DNA from: a virus
Virus record (IMG/VR): IMGVR_UViG_3300006737_000008
Location: 1 to 35,144 of that record
Strand: one strand, 5' to 3'
DNA length: 35,144 nucleotides
Position numbers and translations under genes: made by a program. The first letter of the stretch is position 1, and each line of letters starts with the position of its first letter. Under the pieces are notes generated by a model. That model worked only from the letters and a program-made list of their open reading frames with translations, was not told where the DNA came from and made no database searches. This document shows positions 2,336-26,782 of this stretch, piece after piece.

Positions 2336-3742
2336 ATGAAGGTGTGGCCGTATGATTACGACGAAGACTTTCAATTTAATGAACTTCGTGGAATAGAAGG
2401 CGATCCAGACACGAAGAAAATCCTTACTCGTCTTAGAGTCGCAGACGGTACTTTTAGATATGTCATCAGAACAGACGATGAAGGAAACAGAACACTAACA
2501 ACGGTATCTGAGTCTAATGACTACGAATGCCCTGAGTGTTGCCCAGAAGACGATGGTGGAGGCGGCGGCGGCGGGGGTGCAGGATCGTGTAGCCCATGTT
2601 GGACGCCAAACAATTCAAACGGTTACACAGGGTTTAGCGGTTCATTTACAACACAATGTCAAAGAAACCCAGACGCTCACCTTCTAAATACATGCGCAAA
2701 CTGTTGTAGTTATACATCTACGTTTGACGATCCGTGTTGGGGTGGAGATTACGGATATTGCATTGGTTGTAGCGCGTGTTACTCTGACATAAATGGTTAC
2801 GCTGACGCTTCAATATGTGGTCAAACATACGGGTTTAACAGCCCAAATTTGTTTTATCAAACAAAGCTTATTGTTGTAGGAAGTGAACCAGTATTTGAAG
2901 AAGGCGCTGGGTATTGCGCTAATATGCAAGCGATTCTTGACGCAAATGCTTACGGGTCTTGTCAGTGGTATTCTGTTCCAACTGTTTCTATACATATGTC
3001 TGTATCTTGGAACGACAACAACAATGATGATTACGAGCATTATGTAGGTTGCCCACCATTTGTAACATGCGAAGATTGTACTAAACAAAGTCCTAATCAA
3101 ACTTGTCCCCCTTCTGGACTATGCGTAGAGCTTACTGGAGAACAAAATTGTGGTGGGTGTAATGCTTGTTTTGGAACTGCATACCCAGGCGATGGGCAAT
3201 GGGAAGCTACAACCAATGAAAACGGAGTTGGTGGAGGTTGCTGGATTCTAAGTATGTGGGCTAGGGAAGATTGCACGGCAAGCAAATGTACAGAATGGTG
3301 GGCAAACAAAAGGCTTTGTTCTGAACAAACTAATTGTCAGGGAGGAATGCCAGACGATATTGAAGAAATGAGGCCAGGCGTAGATTGTGAATGCAACTGT
3401 TCAGCAGATTCACTTGGATACGAACTGGGATATGGCTCTTGCTCACATTGTTCATCAGGATGCACGGCAAGAAGTGAAATGTATGGAGCAGCTTTGATTG
3501 TAAATACTGACCTTGAGGGTGCGTGTTCGCCGAAACCATACAACTTAAAAACCAAATGGGGTTGGGAAGGTGGTTGTGGTGACAATTGTGGCGGCGATGA
3601 AATGCCGTGTGGATATGGAACTGAAGAAGGTTGTGTAGACGAAAACGGAGATCCACTGCCCTGGGCTAGTTGCGGGACGCCTTGTTTCTTTGGCTATTCT
3701 TACGAAGCTTATTGCAAGGCTACATCGTTTAGTTTCATTTAG
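2336..3742 (+). CDS. Cysteine-rich protein (43 Cys in 468 aa), unknown
   Basis: A 468-aa protein starting 3 bases after the previous stop. Residues 1-63 are a charged domain with almost no cysteine. Then come a CPECC cluster, a run of eight glycines (about residues 74-81), and a long region packed with CxxC, CC, CxxCxxC and CGGC motifs, 43 cysteines in all, together with many Asn, Gly, Tyr and Trp. There is no signal peptide, so if it is external it probably reaches the surface as part of the virion. The cysteines suggest either a disulphide-rich surface protein or a multi-metal binder; a disulphide-rich fibre or adhesin is favoured by its place among tail genes. No known domain is recognised. 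Confidence 0.85.
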   Translation: MKVWPYDYDEDFQFNELRGIEGDPDTKKILTRLRVADGTFRYVIRTDDEGNRTLTTVSESNDYECPECCPEDDGGGGGGGGAGSCSPCWTPNNSNGYTGFSGSFTTQCQRNPDAHLLNTCANCCSYTSTFDDPCWGGDYGYCIGCSACYSDINGYADASICGQTYGFNSPNLFYQTKLIVVGSEPVFEEGAGYCANMQAILDANAYGSCQWYSVPTVSIHMSVSWNDNNNDDYEHYVGCPPFVTCEDCTKQSPNQTCPPSGLCVELTGEQNCGGCNACFGTAYPGDGQWEATTNENGVGGGCWILSMWAREDCTASKCTEWWANKRLCSEQTNCQGGMPDDIEEMRPGVDCECNCSADSLGYELGYGSCSHCSSGCTARSEMYGAALIVNTDLEGACSPKPYNLKTKWGWEGGCGDNCGGDEMPCGYGTEEGCVDENGDPLPWASCGTPCFFGYSYEAYCKATSFSFI

Positions 3743-3771
3743 TCTGAATTGTTAGGGAAGAACAACAAACT

Positions 3772-4422
3772 ATGTCCGTACCATTTAAATCTAATTTTAC
3801 TGTTTGCGATGAAGTGGGCGGCGTAAATCAATGCGTCGAGCTGTTCTTTAATAGCAATTTGCAACTGCTTAATGTGTCTGAGCCATACGAAGCTAAAGAA
3901 GGAACAATTCCGGTTGTTCATCCAGATGGTTATTTGGTTGAAGTAGTAAAAATGTCAGATATGACTGACGAGCAAATAGCTGCTTTGACTCATAATGGAA
4001 AACCAAATGATGAAGCAATGGAATTTCGACCCGAAAGCGATGCTTGGCATTTGCGAGATGCCTCAACAAACGAAAGCGGTTTAAATAAACTGTCTCAAGG
4101 ACAAGACGAGCCAGGTTGCACCGCATGCGAGCAACGCAAAAAAGAGTTGGAACTTCTAAACAATGACGTACAACACCAAAAAGCAACAAAGAAGAACCTT
4201 CTTAGTAGACTAGCTAAAGGCGTGCCAGGGCTGCTTAAATCTGAACTGGGCATTAACCAGGCGAGCTTAGAGGTGGTTGACAAACGGAAATCTATCTGTT
4301 TGAATTGCCCTGAAGGTATTTACAACTTCGGAGTGTGTGACGAGGAGCGGGGTGGGTGTGGTTGTTTCTTGGCGTCCAAGGTAACAATAGAAGGTGAGTC
4401 TTGCCCGAAAGGTCATTGGTGA
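3772..4422 (+). CDS. Phage protein with C-terminal Cys-rich zinc-ribbon-like domain
   Basis: A 216-aa protein. Residues 1-110 are a mixed, acidic domain; residues about 118-160 form a charged helical segment opening with CTAC; the C-terminal 45 residues carry CxxC, then CxxxxxxCGCF, and end CPKGHW. This ending matches a small cysteine domain common at the C-terminus of phage proteins of unknown function (pattern CxxC...CGCFLxxK...CPxGxW), probably zinc-binding. It follows the cysteine-rich gene after 29 bases and precedes the phosphoesterase-like gene. Role unknown; the zinc-binding call is from the spacing of the cysteines. Confidence 0.8.
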   Translation: MSVPFKSNFTVCDEVGGVNQCVELFFNSNLQLLNVSEPYEAKEGTIPVVHPDGYLVEVVKMSDMTDEQIAALTHNGKPNDEAMEFRPESDAWHLRDASTNESGLNKLSQGQDEPGCTACEQRKKELELLNNDVQHQKATKKNLLSRLAKGVPGLLKSELGINQASLEVVDKRKSICLNCPEGIYNFGVCDEERGGCGCFLASKVTIEGESCPKGHW

Positions 4423-6565: not shown

Positions 6566-6586
6566 TGTTGGCCCCTTTCAAGAGCG
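6563..6586 (-). promoter_or_regulatory. Shared leader element, minus-strand copy
   Basis: Read on the minus strand this is CGCTCTTGAAAGGGGCCAAC followed by AATG, ending at the start codon of the minus-strand gene. The same string stands directly before the genes at 10668, 11184 and 11525. It holds an extended Shine-Dalgarno (GAAAGGGG). Confidence 0.8.
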
Positions 6587-10644: not shown

Positions 10645-10670
10645 CTGCTCTTGAAAGGGGCCAACAAATG
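10645..10670 (+). promoter_or_regulatory. Shared leader element, copy before 10668
   Basis: GCTCTTGAAAGGGGCCAAC followed by AAATG; it has one more A before the start codon than the other copies. It provides an extended Shine-Dalgarno. Confidence 0.8.
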
Positions 10671-11142: not shown

Positions 11143-11187
11143 GTGACCTTCCCGACACACCACGCTCTTGAAAGGGGCCAGCAATGA
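11143..11187 (+). CDS. Possible 14-aa leader peptide
   Basis: GTG at 11143 has GAAGGGGGGG six bases before it. The frame reads MTFPTHHALERGQQ and its TGA overlaps the ATG of the next gene (AATGA), as in translational coupling. The last residues come from the shared leader element, which is likely to be kept for its RNA and not its peptide, so this could be chance. Confidence 0.3.
   Translation: MTFPTHHALERGQQ
11163..11186 (+). promoter_or_regulatory. Shared leader element, copy before 11184
   Basis: CGCTCTTGAAAGGGGCCAGC then AATG. It differs by one base (A to G) from the copies at 11504 and on the minus strand at 6586. Confidence 0.8.
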
Positions 11188-11503: not shown

Positions 11504-11527
11504 CGCTCTTGAAAGGGGCCAACAATG
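11504..11527 (+). promoter_or_regulatory. Shared leader element, copy before 11525
   Basis: CGCTCTTGAAAGGGGCCAAC then AATG, identical to the minus-strand copy at 6563-6586 over all 24 bases. Confidence 0.82.
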
Positions 11528-11788
11528 CAAGAACTAACTGAAGCAAAACTCTCGTTCATGATTCCGACAGATGTAGCACGCATGATTACAGTCGGCGGAG
11601 CAGCCGAAGCGGCCTGGGACGGAAGAGAATGGACAGACGAAGATGATTATGTGCTTAGGTACAGAGAAGACATGAAAATGGATTCTGTTGATGACATATA
11701 CCAATGTATTAAACGAGCAACGGAAGAAGAATACGATTGGTACTTTGGCGTCTTGGTAAATTACTTCAAAGCACAACGACGCAAGTAA
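11525..11788 (+). CDS. Small acidic middle-region protein, unknown
   Basis: An 87-aa protein, acidic and probably helical (many Asp, Glu, Tyr and Trp), closing with a basic KAQRRK tail. ATG follows the third + strand leader element. No domain is recognised. It stands 28 bases before the methyltransferase gene. Confidence 0.7.
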   Translation: MQELTEAKLSFMIPTDVARMITVGGAAEAAWDGREWTDEDDYVLRYREDMKMDSVDDIYQCIKRATEEEYDWYFGVLVNYFKAQRRK

Positions 11789-11816
11789 ACATAAATCCTG
11801 GAAGGGGTGACGCACG

Positions 11817-12746
11817 ATGACACATAAGGTGCTTGACCTGTTTGCGGGCATTGGCGGATTTAGCCTCGGCCTGGAGCGAACGCAAGGATTTGAAACTGTA
11901 GCTTTCTGCGAGTTCAACAAGAAGGCCCAGATGGTCTTGAACAAGCATTGGCCCAATGTGCCGATATATGATGATGTCAAGGAGTTGACCGTTGACCAGT
12001 TATCAACAGATGGAATTATTCCCACAGTCATCACCGGAGGATTCCCATGCCAAGACATTTCAGGCGCAGGAAAAGGAAAGGGAATTATCGGGGAGCGGTC
12101 GGGCCTTTGGTCGGAGATGTTTCGACTCATCAGAGATGTACGGCCAACGTGGGCAATTATTGAAAACGTATCAGCCCTTCGATCTAAAGGGCTTACCTTG
12201 GTCTTACAAAATCTCTGCGAGATCGGGTATTGCGCTGAATGGCATTGCATACCCGCTAGTTCCGTTGGCGCGCCCCATCAGAGGGACCGAATCTGGATCT
12301 TGGCCTACCCCGTGCGCGAACACTCGACCGAACGAGGGGAACGTGAGAATGCTGAGAGCCAAAGTAATGGCCGGAGAGTTGAGCCGCCTGGACGCGAAGG
12401 CAATGTTGAATGGGAAAGATCCATTCGAGGCGCAGGGGAGCGTACCGGAAAGGTTTTGGCCTACACCAACGTCGGGAGGGGAGAAGACGGGAGGATACTT
12501 GATGGAGTGGGGGGGGTCGTGGTCACGCAAGACCATATCCGACTTGCCAAAGAGTCTTCAAAATGGAAAGTTGAACCCAGGATTCCCCGAGTGGTTGATG
12601 GGTTTCCCGGAAGGGTGGACAGACTTAAGCAACTAGGCAACAGCGTTGTACCGCAAATCCCACAACTCATTGGGCAAGCGATACTTGATTACGAGAACCA
12701 GATTGAAGCCGAAAGGGCTAAACATGAACAACGAATCACTGATTGA
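11817..12746 (+). CDS. DNA cytosine-5 methyltransferase
   Basis: A 309-aa C5 methyltransferase that would transfer a methyl group from S-adenosylmethionine to cytosine in phage DNA, probably guarding it from host restriction. Motif I is LDLFAGIGGFSLGLE (residues 6-20), motif IV GGFPCQDIS with catalytic Cys78, motif VI IIENV (114-118), motif VIII QRDRIW (155-160) and motif X LGNSVVPQI (273-281), so the catalytic set is complete. The target-recognition region (about residues 165-255) is rich in Arg, Gly and Glu and looks unusually loose, because a second long frame overlaps it. The ribosome site is GGAAGGGG. No restriction partner is present. Confidence 0.95.
   Translation: MTHKVLDLFAGIGGFSLGLERTQGFETVAFCEFNKKAQMVLNKHWPNVPIYDDVKELTVDQLSTDGIIPTVITGGFPCQDISGAGKGKGIIGERSGLWSEMFRLIRDVRPTWAIIENVSALRSKGLTLVLQNLCEIGYCAEWHCIPASSVGAPHQRDRIWILAYPVREHSTERGERENAESQSNGRRVEPPGREGNVEWERSIRGAGERTGKVLAYTNVGRGEDGRILDGVGGVVVTQDHIRLAKESSKWKVEPRIPRVVDGFPGRVDRLKQLGNSVVPQIPQLIGQAILDYENQIEAERAKHEQRITD
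11992..12636 (+). CDS. Overlapping +1-frame protein inside the methyltransferase gene
   Basis: A 214-codon frame wholly inside the methyltransferase gene, shifted by +1. It opens MTSYQQMELFPQ and carries SGSWPTPCA, a helix with LRAKVMAGELSRLDAKAML, a second FWPTPTSGG, and the ending NPGFPEWLMGFPEGWTDLSN. From memory, WPTP repeats and a C-terminal EWLMG(F/Y/W)PxGWT occur in phage proteins linked to C5 methyltransferases. Within about 12300-12600 this frame looks more protein-like than the methyltransferase frame. No strong ribosome site precedes ATG at 11992, so its start and expression are uncertain. It may be a real dual-coded protein or the trace of one. Confidence 0.55.
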   Translation: MTSYQQMELFPQSSPEDSHAKTFQAQEKERELSGSGRAFGRRCFDSSEMYGQRGQLLKTYQPFDLKGLPWSYKISARSGIALNGIAYPLVPLARPIRGTESGSWPTPCANTRPNEGNVRMLRAKVMAGELSRLDAKAMLNGKDPFEAQGSVPERFWPTPTSGGEKTGGYLMEWGGSWSRKTISDLPKSLQNGKLNPGFPEWLMGFPEGWTDLSN

Positions 12747-13641: not shown

Positions 13642-14025
13642 ATGGCAAAACTACCCAAAGTCAAAATACCCAAGCGCAACAAGTACAACGCCAATCCCAC
13701 TAGGTATAGGGGGTGGCGATTCGACTCCAAGTTTGAAGCCGAGTACGCCAAAAAACTAGATGCCCTGGTCGGTAAACGAATCGTGCTTTGGTGGCTACGC
13801 CAGGTTCCGATTGATTTGACCGAGGACGATAGGTACAAGGTTGACTTTTTGGTCTTCTACGAAGATGGAACTTTAGAGGCGGTTGAAATCAAAGGAATGG
13901 AAACAGCAGCGTTCCGCAGGACTAGACGGCTCTGGCTAAAGTACGGACCTATGCCCTTGAAGATTGTTAAAAAGAACCGTACAACCGAAACACTGTGGGA
14001 CAACGAAACTACAGCAATCGAGTAA
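13642..14025 (+). CDS. DUF1064-type nuclease
   Basis: A 127-aa protein of the DUF1064 phage nuclease type. It shows KYNANPTRYRGWRFDSKFEAEYAKKL (about residues 14-40), then VPIDL...YKVDFLVFYEDGTLEAVEIKG, the E...D...ExK arrangement of a restriction-enzyme-like nuclease fold with catalytic Glu34, Asp68 and Glu80-Lys82 as approximate positions. Family members resemble Holliday-junction resolvases and may resolve branched DNA before packaging. It begins 15 bases after a strong terminator, starting a new transcription unit. Confidence 0.82.
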   Translation: MAKLPKVKIPKRNKYNANPTRYRGWRFDSKFEAEYAKKLDALVGKRIVLWWLRQVPIDLTEDDRYKVDFLVFYEDGTLEAVEIKGMETAAFRRTRRLWLKYGPMPLKIVKKNRTTETLWDNETTAIE

Positions 14026-17916: not shown

Positions 17917-19743
17917 ATGGCAAACCCAAAACAAGCGCGTAATGATAAGGGACGGTTCGCCAAGACAGAAGACGGCGAGATCGTCCCAAACGAAAATCCC
18001 CGCGCAGTGGTTGAACCGCCATTCGCGTCCGTAGTTGAGCTTCAACGCTCCTACATCAGTCACTTCACCAAGGTACTTCGTCGTTCTGACATGGCTTTGC
18101 GCAAGGATCGCAAGCTACAGCGACAGATGCGACGTGACCCGGACGTGATGGGACCGCTTTATCAGCGGCAATCAGCGGTAGCCCTGCTCGAATACGAGAT
18201 CAAGCCAGAAGACGAGAACGATCCGATTCAGGTTGAACAGGCGGCTACCCTCGAGAAACTGCTCAAGACCAATCTGTACAAGCCGTTTGAGTTCTTCATG
18301 GCGTTGCTTGACGCTGTTTGGTACGGACCTGCTGCCGTCCAGGTGACGCCGGAAATGCGAGAAGGCTTCGTTGTACCAGGCGAGTGGATGCCTATTCACT
18401 CAGACACGCTGGCGTTCACCACATACGGCGATCTGACCATGTACGTCGGCCTGAAATACGAGGGGGACAAGGAAACCGGGCCTTACGGCATGGTTCACAC
18501 CCTCGACGATGAGGAACGCGAATTGGTCGTTCTTCACACTCATGGCCGACAGGGACCGGATTACGAAGAACCAGAAGAAGCCGCATACGTCTATTCAGGC
18601 CGTGGCATCAGGGATACGGTCTGGTTCTACTGGATGATGAAGCAAACCGCTCTCCAGTTCTGGATGACTTGGATCGAGCGGTATGGCATGGGTATTCGCG
18701 TCGGAACCTACCCGGACGGCAACAACGCTGCCAAGGACGTGATGGAAGAGGTCTTGCAGAACCTCGTTGGCGACGTGTCGGTGGTTATCCCACGGCAACC
18801 AGGCGAGAGCCGCGATGCCTACTCAATCGAGGTTCAGGAGCCGAACGCAGGAAACGCCAAGACGTTTGCGGACCTGATCGAAGGCTACTTGGCCGGTCAG
18901 ATCAAGGAACTGATTATTGGGCAGACGGCAACGACCGAAGCCACATCTACCGGGCTTGGATCATCGGTAGGCGATCAGCACGCCGAGACGTTCAAGCGGA
19001 TGGTTCGTGCCGACGCTATGAACCTTGCCGACACCCTCACGCGGGAACTGGTCTGGAAGTACCACGAAATGAACTTCGGGGAAACGGCCTACAAGCCCCG
19101 ATTCGAGTTCTCGCTCGAGAAGAACGATCCGCATGAGTTTATGGAAGCTGTACGCGGATTCGTTGAGATGGGCGGCGAGGTATCACAGCGACAAGCACGC
19201 GAGATCCTTGGACTGACTGAACCCGAAGAGGGGGAGCCGGTTCTCTCGAGTCAGCAGCAGCAAGAGCAAATGGCTGCACCAGGCCAAGAGGAAAAAAACC
19301 CATTGGAAGCGTTGCTTGGCGGCGGACAGCCCCGAAGTGAGGCATTCAAGAAATACACCTACGCTCTTAAGACAGAGATGCAGAAGGAAGATGATTACAA
19401 GCCAACGGACGAGATGGCTTCACTTGCCGAACGGGGTCTTGAGCTTCGAGAGGAGCATGGCCGAGGCGGCACATCTATAGGCGTAGCAAGAGCTAGAAAC
19501 ATCAAGAATAAAGATAACCTGTCTGCTGACACGGTAAAGCGTATGCATTCATTCTTCTCGAGACATCGGGTAGACCTTGACGCACCAGCAGCAAAGCGGG
19601 GACATGAAGATTATCCTTCGGCGGGTGTAATCGCCTGGATGCTTTGGGGTGGAGATCCTTCAGACCCGGATGGCGCTGGAGCCGCCTGGGCAGAACGACA
19701 CGCAGAAAAACTAGACAAAACCAAGAAGGACAACACCAAATGA
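17917..19743 (+). CDS. Portal protein (DUF935/Mu gp29-like) with extra C-terminal module
   Basis: A 608-aa portal, the ring at the capsid vertex through which DNA passes. Residues about 45-460 follow the DUF935 (Mu gp29-like) plan: a helical front (RKDRKLQRQMRRDPDVMGPLYQRQSAVALLEYEI), DAVWYGPAAVQV, QTALQFWMTWIERYGMGIRVGTYP, and a helical domain with ELIIGQTATTEATSTGLGSSVGDQHAETF. Residues about 490-608 are an additional basic module (EHGRGGTSIGVARAR..., YPSAGVIAWMLWGGD) that looks separate. The start has only a weak ribosome site. The next gene overlaps by four bases (ATGA). Confidence 0.88.
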   Translation: MANPKQARNDKGRFAKTEDGEIVPNENPRAVVEPPFASVVELQRSYISHFTKVLRRSDMALRKDRKLQRQMRRDPDVMGPLYQRQSAVALLEYEIKPEDENDPIQVEQAATLEKLLKTNLYKPFEFFMALLDAVWYGPAAVQVTPEMREGFVVPGEWMPIHSDTLAFTTYGDLTMYVGLKYEGDKETGPYGMVHTLDDEERELVVLHTHGRQGPDYEEPEEAAYVYSGRGIRDTVWFYWMMKQTALQFWMTWIERYGMGIRVGTYPDGNNAAKDVMEEVLQNLVGDVSVVIPRQPGESRDAYSIEVQEPNAGNAKTFADLIEGYLAGQIKELIIGQTATTEATSTGLGSSVGDQHAETFKRMVRADAMNLADTLTRELVWKYHEMNFGETAYKPRFEFSLEKNDPHEFMEAVRGFVEMGGEVSQRQAREILGLTEPEEGEPVLSSQQQQEQMAAPGQEEKNPLEALLGGGQPRSEAFKKYTYALKTEMQKEDDYKPTDEMASLAERGLELREEHGRGGTSIGVARARNIKNKDNLSADTVKRMHSFFSRHRVDLDAPAAKRGHEDYPSAGVIAWMLWGGDPSDPDGAGAAWAERHAEKLDKTKKDNTK

Positions 19744-25765: not shown

Positions 25766-26782
25766 ATGGCAGAAGTCGCACCCGGTGGCGGAAACACATT
25801 CGTCCCCACATTCTCAGAAGCGACGGGGCAGATTCAAGTTGAATTCACCCGTTCCCCCAATTCGTTCCCGGTCACTCAGTATTGCAAGCTGACTCCGGTT
25901 TCAAAGTCAACTGGCTACTACCTCAAGATTGACGAGGAAGAAGCAAGCCGTATTGTCAGCACAAACGATTACGTTTGGCGTGATGGCAACGATGCTCCTG
26001 AAGGCAACCAAGTCGATCATGAGTTTACGACGTACTCGACGGAGCGTTTTAGCCCGACGTTTACGCTTGGACATCGTGCTGTCGGTAATGCTGATTGGGA
26101 CATTGTTGCAGCTCATGCTCGTATCGCAGCATCGAAGGCTATGCGTCTTCGTAGCTTCCGTGCAGCCACCCTTCTTACCACAGGTGGCAATTGGCCTACC
26201 GGAACCACTAACGATTGCAACACTCTGGTTGGCGGCAAGATGGACGCTGGTTCAGGAAACAACATCCAAAAGGGCTTCAACAAAGTCGTTGAAACCATTA
26301 TGGAGAACACTGGCGAAGCTGTGCAGCCGCAAGACATCATTGCAATCATGGGAACCGACACGGCATTCCAGCTTACCCAGGCTGCTGAATATCGTGAGTA
26401 TTTCCAAGGTTCGCCGTTTGCAGCCAACTTTGTTCGGGGCGATGGCGAGTTCAACGAGTTTGCAATGCTTAACCAGTTCTTTGGAGTTGGCGGCATCGTG
26501 GTTGACACTACTACTCGAGTCACCAATCGCAAGGGTGCTACGAAGGCTCGTTCAGCCATCTATGGCGACGATATTGTCTTTGTTAGCCGTCCTGGCGGAC
26601 TTCTTGGAACTGAAGGCGTCCCCGATTTCTCCACCGTTACTTGCTTCGCATACGAAGACATGACGGTTGAGACGATGGATGACACCTGGAACCGACGAAC
26701 CCGTGGCCGTGTTGTCGATGATTCGGCACTCGCCCTGACGGCTCCTCTTTCCGGCTTCCTCCTGACGGACGTTGTTGACTGA
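25766..26782 (+). CDS. Major capsid protein
   Basis: A 338-aa protein following a strong ribosome site (GAGGAAT). Position after protease/scaffold and decoration genes and before connector genes, together with length and even composition, supports a HK97-fold shell protein. It contains FTLGHRAVGNADWDIVAAHARIAASKAMRLRSFRAATLL and a long helical spine-like region near residues 165-200. Residues 2-14 (AEVAPGGGNTFVP) match a segment of the protease/scaffold protein. A terminator follows. Confidence 0.88.
   Translation: MAEVAPGGGNTFVPTFSEATGQIQVEFTRSPNSFPVTQYCKLTPVSKSTGYYLKIDEEEASRIVSTNDYVWRDGNDAPEGNQVDHEFTTYSTERFSPTFTLGHRAVGNADWDIVAAHARIAASKAMRLRSFRAATLLTTGGNWPTGTTNDCNTLVGGKMDAGSGNNIQKGFNKVVETIMENTGEAVQPQDIIAIMGTDTAFQLTQAAEYREYFQGSPFAANFVRGDGEFNEFAMLNQFFGVGGIVVDTTTRVTNRKGATKARSAIYGDDIVFVSRPGGLLGTEGVPDFSTVTCFAYEDMTVETMDDTWNRRTRGRVVDDSALALTAPLSGFLLTDVVD

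Follow-up and report, generated by a model that had tools for sequence, protein, structure and literature searches.

The locus analysed here lies in a window of 35,144 nucleotides (positions 1 to 35,144 of the viral record IMGVR_UViG_3300006737_000008 in IMG/VR) and raises the question whether the DNA of a C5-cytosine methyltransferase gene encodes a second functional protein in another reading frame. Long genes nested on the same strand are thought to be rare and annotation software discards them. An earlier inspection of the letters alone had predicted that a +1 frame lying wholly inside the methyltransferase frame is a real gene, whose product possibly guides DNA recognition. Here, we show that this frame constitutes a genuine gene and that its product (beta) is a conserved protein under selection. 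Very probably a single stretch of DNA in the window specifies both subunits of a C5-cytosine methyltransferase, alpha being the catalytic chain and beta the one that carries motif IX and the recognition modules.

The two reading frames and their products

The methyltransferase frame (alpha) matches PF00145 with an E-value of 4e-41, the match being confined to residues 4-170, and according to the criteria of this family motifs I, IV (PCQ), VI (ENV), VIII and X are all present. The original prediction had stated that this frame keeps all catalytic motifs, which holds for motifs I-VIII and X; motif IX is missing there and sits in the +1 frame. Since an in-frame small domain with motif IX is absent from frame 0 of alpha and motif IX is found in beta, alpha represents a large-domain chain and not a complete monomeric enzyme. 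In its AF2 model the large domain and the C-terminal helix with motif X are predicted with confidence (pLDDT above 90 for most of residues 1-160 and 281-309), and most of residues 171-262 fall below pLDDT 50. The top PDB match to this model is M.HhaI (Foldseek E 3e-15; Z 24.8, rmsd 3.1, 225 residues aligned).

The predicted 214-codon frame, starting with TTG and nested wholly within alpha in the +1 phase, was confirmed (Table 1), and both WPTP motifs (at 12301 and 12457), the helix LRAKVMAGELSRLDAKAML and the ending EWLMGFPEGWTDL that had been ascribed to its product were all found. Close relatives possess TTG, GTG or ATG at the same start site, preceded by AAGGA(G). An NTG codon together with a Shine-Dalgarno sequence occurs in the beta start zone of 77 of 157 relatives compared with 23.8 ± 4.4 in 200 synonymous permutations, the maximum of which reached 37. 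A further clade (47 of 243) has a beta that starts with MSW from an ATG 4 nt past the start of alpha (ATGAATG) and covers almost the entire gene.

Beta proteins contain between 0 and 6 WPTP-headed modules each (498 among 243 proteins), and related modules reappear in different loci and positions. They are located upstream of a conserved ending, GxLNPxWVEWLMGFPxGWTDL (LNPxxxEWLMGFPxGW). The window beta matches phrog_1008 over its full length (E 6e-14), and tblastn detects it with 25-33% identity in 36 phage records from Paenibacillus, Vibrio, Microcystis, Acinetobacter, Lacticaseibacillus, Pseudomonas, Salmonella and other sources. No match of the window beta was found in Pfam or NCBIfam, 72 beta members gave no Pfam family and the beta sequence yielded no credible match in the PDB. 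Modelled alone by AF2, beta shows no confident fold (mean pLDDT 59.6), its only well-predicted part being the RPNEGN helical unit in module 1 (pLDDT of at least 90 in blocks 111-140).

Table 1. Positions of the features of the nested locus in the window
Feature	Positions	Strand	Remarks
Alpha, C5-cytosine methyltransferase	11817..12746	+	309 aa; motifs I-VIII and X in frame 0, without motif IX
Alpha motif IV GGFPCQD (catalytic Cys)	12036..12056	+	From translation and invariant columns; the +1 frame there reads EDSHAKT
Alpha-frame reading of the recognition region, residues 171-262	12327..12602	+	Predicted disordered, unconstrained
Alpha motif X GNSVVP, frame 0	12636..12653	+	Starts at the final base of the beta stop codon
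Beta, nested +1-frame protein	11992..12636	+	214 aa from TTG 11992; 208 aa from ATG 12010
Beta ribosome-binding site AAGGAG	11979..11984	+	7 nt upstream of TTG 11992; also encodes Lys-Glu of alpha
Beta module 1, WPTP + RPNEGNVRMLRAKVMAGELSRLDAKAMLNGKDPFEAQG	12301..12456	+	From module analysis and beta-frame constraint
Beta module 2, WPTPTSGGEKTGGYLMEWGGSWSRKTISDLPKSLQN	12457..12564	+	From module analysis
Beta C-terminus GKLNPGFPEWLMGFPEGWTDL, equivalent of C5 motif IX	12565..12627	+	In frame with motif X in actinophages

Openness of the +1 frame and selection on both frames

For the null expectation the synonymous codons of alpha were permuted 20,000 times, by which protein and codon usage are kept. 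The longest open +1 stretch comprises 215 codons compared with a permutation mean of 89, and 8 of the 20,000 permutations reach 215, the exact beta span staying open in a single one. The +1 profile score amounts to 288 bits for the real sequence and to at most 141 bits in 300 permutations, about 100 bits coming from the methyltransferase protein itself. Stop codons were also sought in the +1 frame of relatives and none were found: it is open in all 182 distinct relatives, where 1.1 would be expected (about 0.6% of synonymous reshufflings). Because these relatives had been found through the +1 protein, a second set of methyltransferases was drawn by the motif-I region alone, which precedes the overlap, and here 73 of 74 complete methyltransferases possess a beta homologue in the same +1 frame. 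In the one exception (L223, 2408-3262) the +1 frame matches in its C-terminal part only. Of 120 occurrences of the pattern MGxP followed by GNxVVP in viral contigs, 117 have the nested phase.

Other long open frames occur in the window. As negative control served a 244-codon nested +1 ORF (25929-26663) in the major head protein gene (25766-26782), which was rejected as a real gene since codon usage explains its openness (P = 0.22) and it is without family match. The portal gene (17917-19743) contains 207 open +2 codons (ORF 18669-19136), more than all 2000 synonymous permutations (maximum 201); this is one of several frames tested, and no homologue was found in the phage collection. An antisense ORF of 238 codons (11534-12250, minus strand) covers the alpha start. 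Its openness is probably due to chance since L012 and L022 also keep it open over the alpha part whereas five other relatives do not.

A comparison of substitutions frame by frame, which had been proposed as a check, reveals that constraint shifts from alpha over motifs IV-VIII to beta over the recognition region, both frames remaining open. Among close relatives the third positions of alpha differ at 0.62 before the overlap versus 0.28 over motifs IV-VIII inside it, and the same drop is seen in 692 pairs (from 0.61 to 0.38). Between the window and its relative L011 the differences in the recognition region are 0.42, 0.18 and 0.12 at alpha positions 1, 2 and 3, respectively, the most variable being alpha position 1, corresponding to beta position 3. 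Amino-acid changes were further related to those expected from random placement of the observed substitutions. With blocks aligned by beta, which possibly introduces a bias towards beta, the ratio of observed to expected changes is 0.48 for alpha and 0.92 for beta over motifs IV-VIII (105 blocks), and 0.97 for alpha and 0.50 for beta over the WPTP modules and C-terminus (69 blocks); the same procedure still gives alpha as constrained in the first part. At the protein level, constraint on the first approximately 100 residues of beta is only weak. For the window and L011, 8 alpha changes compared with 27.8 expected were counted over motifs IV-VIII, and 21 beta changes compared with 48.4 expected in the recognition region. 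Additionally, modules common to several loci vary at beta third positions.

Motif IX in relatives and in known split enzymes

In C5 methyltransferases the recognition domain and motif IX sit between motifs VIII and X (PMC3404938). Within the same bacterial genomes conventional enzymes with in-frame motif IX (RRITVREAARLQSFPD and similar) occur without beta, whereas alpha-type enzymes without in-frame motif IX are accompanied by beta. Among 228 complete nested pairs the strict motif-IX pattern is found in beta 219 times, the remaining eight betas being near variants, and a single alpha has a motif-IX-like pattern, namely that of L151, in which the motif has shifted to frame 0. A nested second chain would explain the apparent lack of motif IX and a recognition domain in this methyltransferase subfamily.

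Homologues of the +1 protein outside the nested arrangement were sought and found. In actinophages the corresponding parts occur in other layouts: prophiGD91-2 gp27 and Cornucopia gp70 unite LPTP modules, RLAxAFxEWMMGWPAGWVT, motif X (GNGVVPQQ) and motifs I-VIII in one chain, with one more LPTP unit still in +1, and in Lymara gp76/77, Vash gp32/33 and Poompha gp76/75 motifs I-VIII form one gene and the modules together with motifs IX and X the next gene. CheeseTouch gp88 and L325 have the modules in +1 and motif IX in frame 0. The window-type beta profile matches the in-frame modules and motif IX of actinophages with an hhalign probability of 97.9% (E 4e-13), and phrog_1008 spans both nested betas and actinophage in-frame forms. 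The nested beta (182 aa) of L446, a locus from a gammaproteobacterium, ends with RRMLPSEYEILQGFPEGW, which is plainly a motif IX. The alpha of this locus covers PF00145 2-169 and TIGR00675 1-186, and the beta matches come just after (PF00145 173-295, E 0.079; TIGR00675 178-300, E 0.044), both below the cut-off. With an open frame, an own start and ribosome-binding site, purifying selection and independent homologues including non-nested actinophage ones, the predicted overlap of two genes is borne out.

Modules and motif IX are split between +1 and frame 0 in L440, L325, L444, L445 and L151, and such mixed layouts possibly represent steps between nested and single-chain enzymes. A methyltransferase of an E. 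coli prophage (L301, 1501-2262) is annotated as pseudogene with an internal stop; its alpha and beta frames are broken at nearly the same place.

For M.EcoHK31I, a small gene (176 aa) was reportedly described by Lee, Kam and Shaw in 1995 inside the large one (309 aa) in a different frame. The target sequences are YGGCCR for M.EcoHK31I and CYCGRG for M.AquI. Two E. coli chromosomal loci (L448 and L449, both at 2983-3912) contain an alpha of 309 aa with a nested +1 frame of 176 aa starting from ATG, and we take them to be of the EcoHK31I type. Both have a convergent NotI-family nuclease, the nested beta is annotated in neither, and DNA similar to this locus was detected in 106 of 5,426 genomes. 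Given this precedent, which the original prediction had not named, and the E. coli loci, the kind of system found in the window is already known.

The large chain of M.EcoHK31I comprises motifs I-VIII, X and a predicted recognition domain and the small chain motif IX (PMC3404938), and the enzyme has been termed naturally split (PMC3439449). Likewise, the window alpha has motifs I-VIII and X without IX, and motif IX, as an equivalent divergent in sequence, is found on a small second polypeptide nested in alpha in the same +1 phase as in the E. coli loci. The match between the window beta and the EcoHK31I-like beta of L314 (the same gene as in L446) is only a weak collinear one confined to the N-terminal part. 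In contrast with M.EcoHK31I, the window gene is a phage gene whose beta has WPTP modules and a motif IX of the form LNPxxxEWLMGFP instead of RRMLPSEYERLQGFP. Selection in the recognition region acts on beta rather than on alpha in the phage form; over the recognition overlap of the E. coli-type locus no clear preference for beta is seen. A further difference is that no nuclease partner was identified among the two ORFs checked (11525-11788 without family match; 13642-14025 resolvase-like).

M.AquI is split within the variable region and its small chain carries motifs IX and X (PMC3404938). It resembles the window in having the recognition half on a second polypeptide but differs in motif X, which stays in alpha in the window; the tandem genes of the actinophages Lymara, Vash and Poompha have a layout resembling that of M.AquI. 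In the phage ShiLan a hidden frame within the methylase gene is a homing insertion with HNH nuclease (PMC11855218). An insert of this type was rejected for the window since no HNH family match was obtained and the overlap covers conserved motifs and not an insert.

Homologues of beta are already present in databases, namely phrog_1008 ('DNA methyltransferase') and gp51 of Paenibacillus phage Redbud ('g50 internal gene'), with neither role nor architecture given in the records examined. No earlier report of the phage family was found in the open literature, where most subscription papers are missing. Confirmed candidates number at least 479 in viral contigs and 277 in genome contigs from many phyla, with nesting verified for the fetched loci only. 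The same nested arrangement occurs in hundreds of phage and bacterial sequences, with one studied bacterial precedent. The nested gene is ancient and near-obligate within its subfamily, and occurs in phages as well as in bacteria of many phyla. New are the phage version, its very wide distribution, the recognition modules in beta and the modules common to several loci.

Probable division of labour between the subunits

Beta is most likely the recognition subunit, as judged from its sequence. Its modules stand at the position of the recognition domain in single-chain relatives and it has motif IX, which supports the guiding role suggested by the original prediction. Alpha would fold as the catalytic large domain that binds SAM and flips and methylates the cytosine, its reading of the recognition region forming a floppy linker to motif X. 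Beta, for which alpha contains a separate start codon and ribosome-binding site, would bring the small-domain part with WPTP-headed recognition modules and motif IX. We infer that both chains join physically as a heterodimer, giving one active enzyme that would depend on both chains. Beta with its particular set of modules would then decide, or help to decide, which sequence is methylated, and this methylation would most likely shield the phage DNA from host restriction.

More tentatively, beta might serve as a cassette in which target-recognition modules (0-6 WPTP units per protein), each with its own target, can be exchanged. If so, phages would reprogram or widen their methylation specificity by shuffling WPTP units in one frame and the overlapping catalytic chain would only have to stay open.

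Alternatively, the tasks could be divided as described for M.EcoHK31I (PMC3404938), with alpha recognising DNA and beta supplying motif IX only. Since the recognition domain of M.EcoHK31I was placed in the large subunit, beta may give only motif IX in that enzyme, which agrees with the E. coli-type locus lacking a clear beta preference. For the window we judge this division unlikely because in the phage family the recognition overlap is unconstrained in alpha (0.97) but constrained in beta (0.50), the alpha linker is predicted to be disordered and the modules hold the recognition position in single-chain relatives.

A single polypeptide produced by frameshifting, which follows alpha to motif VIII, changes into +1 for the modules and motif IX and returns for motif X, would fit both the switch of the constrained frame at exactly those places and the presence of the same parts in one chain in actinophages. 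It is nevertheless very unlikely. Two shifts in opposite directions would be required, beta has its own start with Shine-Dalgarno sequences above the null, and the beta frame of relatives is open about 100 codons upstream of the switch point. Moreover, the tandem-gene forms of actinophages are separate chains and M.EcoHK31I was reported as two polypeptides (PMC3404938).

That beta is real but has another job (nuclease, anti-restriction or regulatory) and merely shares the methyltransferase DNA is suggested by the missing Pfam, NCBIfam and credible PDB matches of the window beta and by its N-terminal part, to which no role is assigned. We consider this highly improbable in view of the near-obligate co-occurrence (73 of 74), the complementarity in motif IX, the homology to in-frame recognition regions with motif IX and the lack of any nuclease family match. 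Finally, a +1 frame that is only a by-product of methyltransferase codon usage and protein conservation would account for the roughly 100 bits of profile score derived from that protein, but its probability is negligible as it is contradicted by the open-frame null, the co-occurrence, the enrichment of start and Shine-Dalgarno sequences, the selection pattern with beta third-position variation of shared modules and the existence of non-nested homologues.

With both chains encoded by one DNA stretch, a re-coded expression version of the annotated gene would no longer yield half of the enzyme. Modular DNA recognition in trans could also be tested directly with this locus.

Elsewhere in the window a 15-mer, CTCTTGAAAGGGGCC, is found in four exact copies, three on the plus strand (10648-10662, 11165-11179 and 11506-11520) and one on the minus strand (6570-6584). 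Two of them, those at 11165 and 11506, stop about 5 nt short of the ATG of the genes starting at 11184 and 11525, and the repeat is possibly a shared leader or ribosome-binding region.
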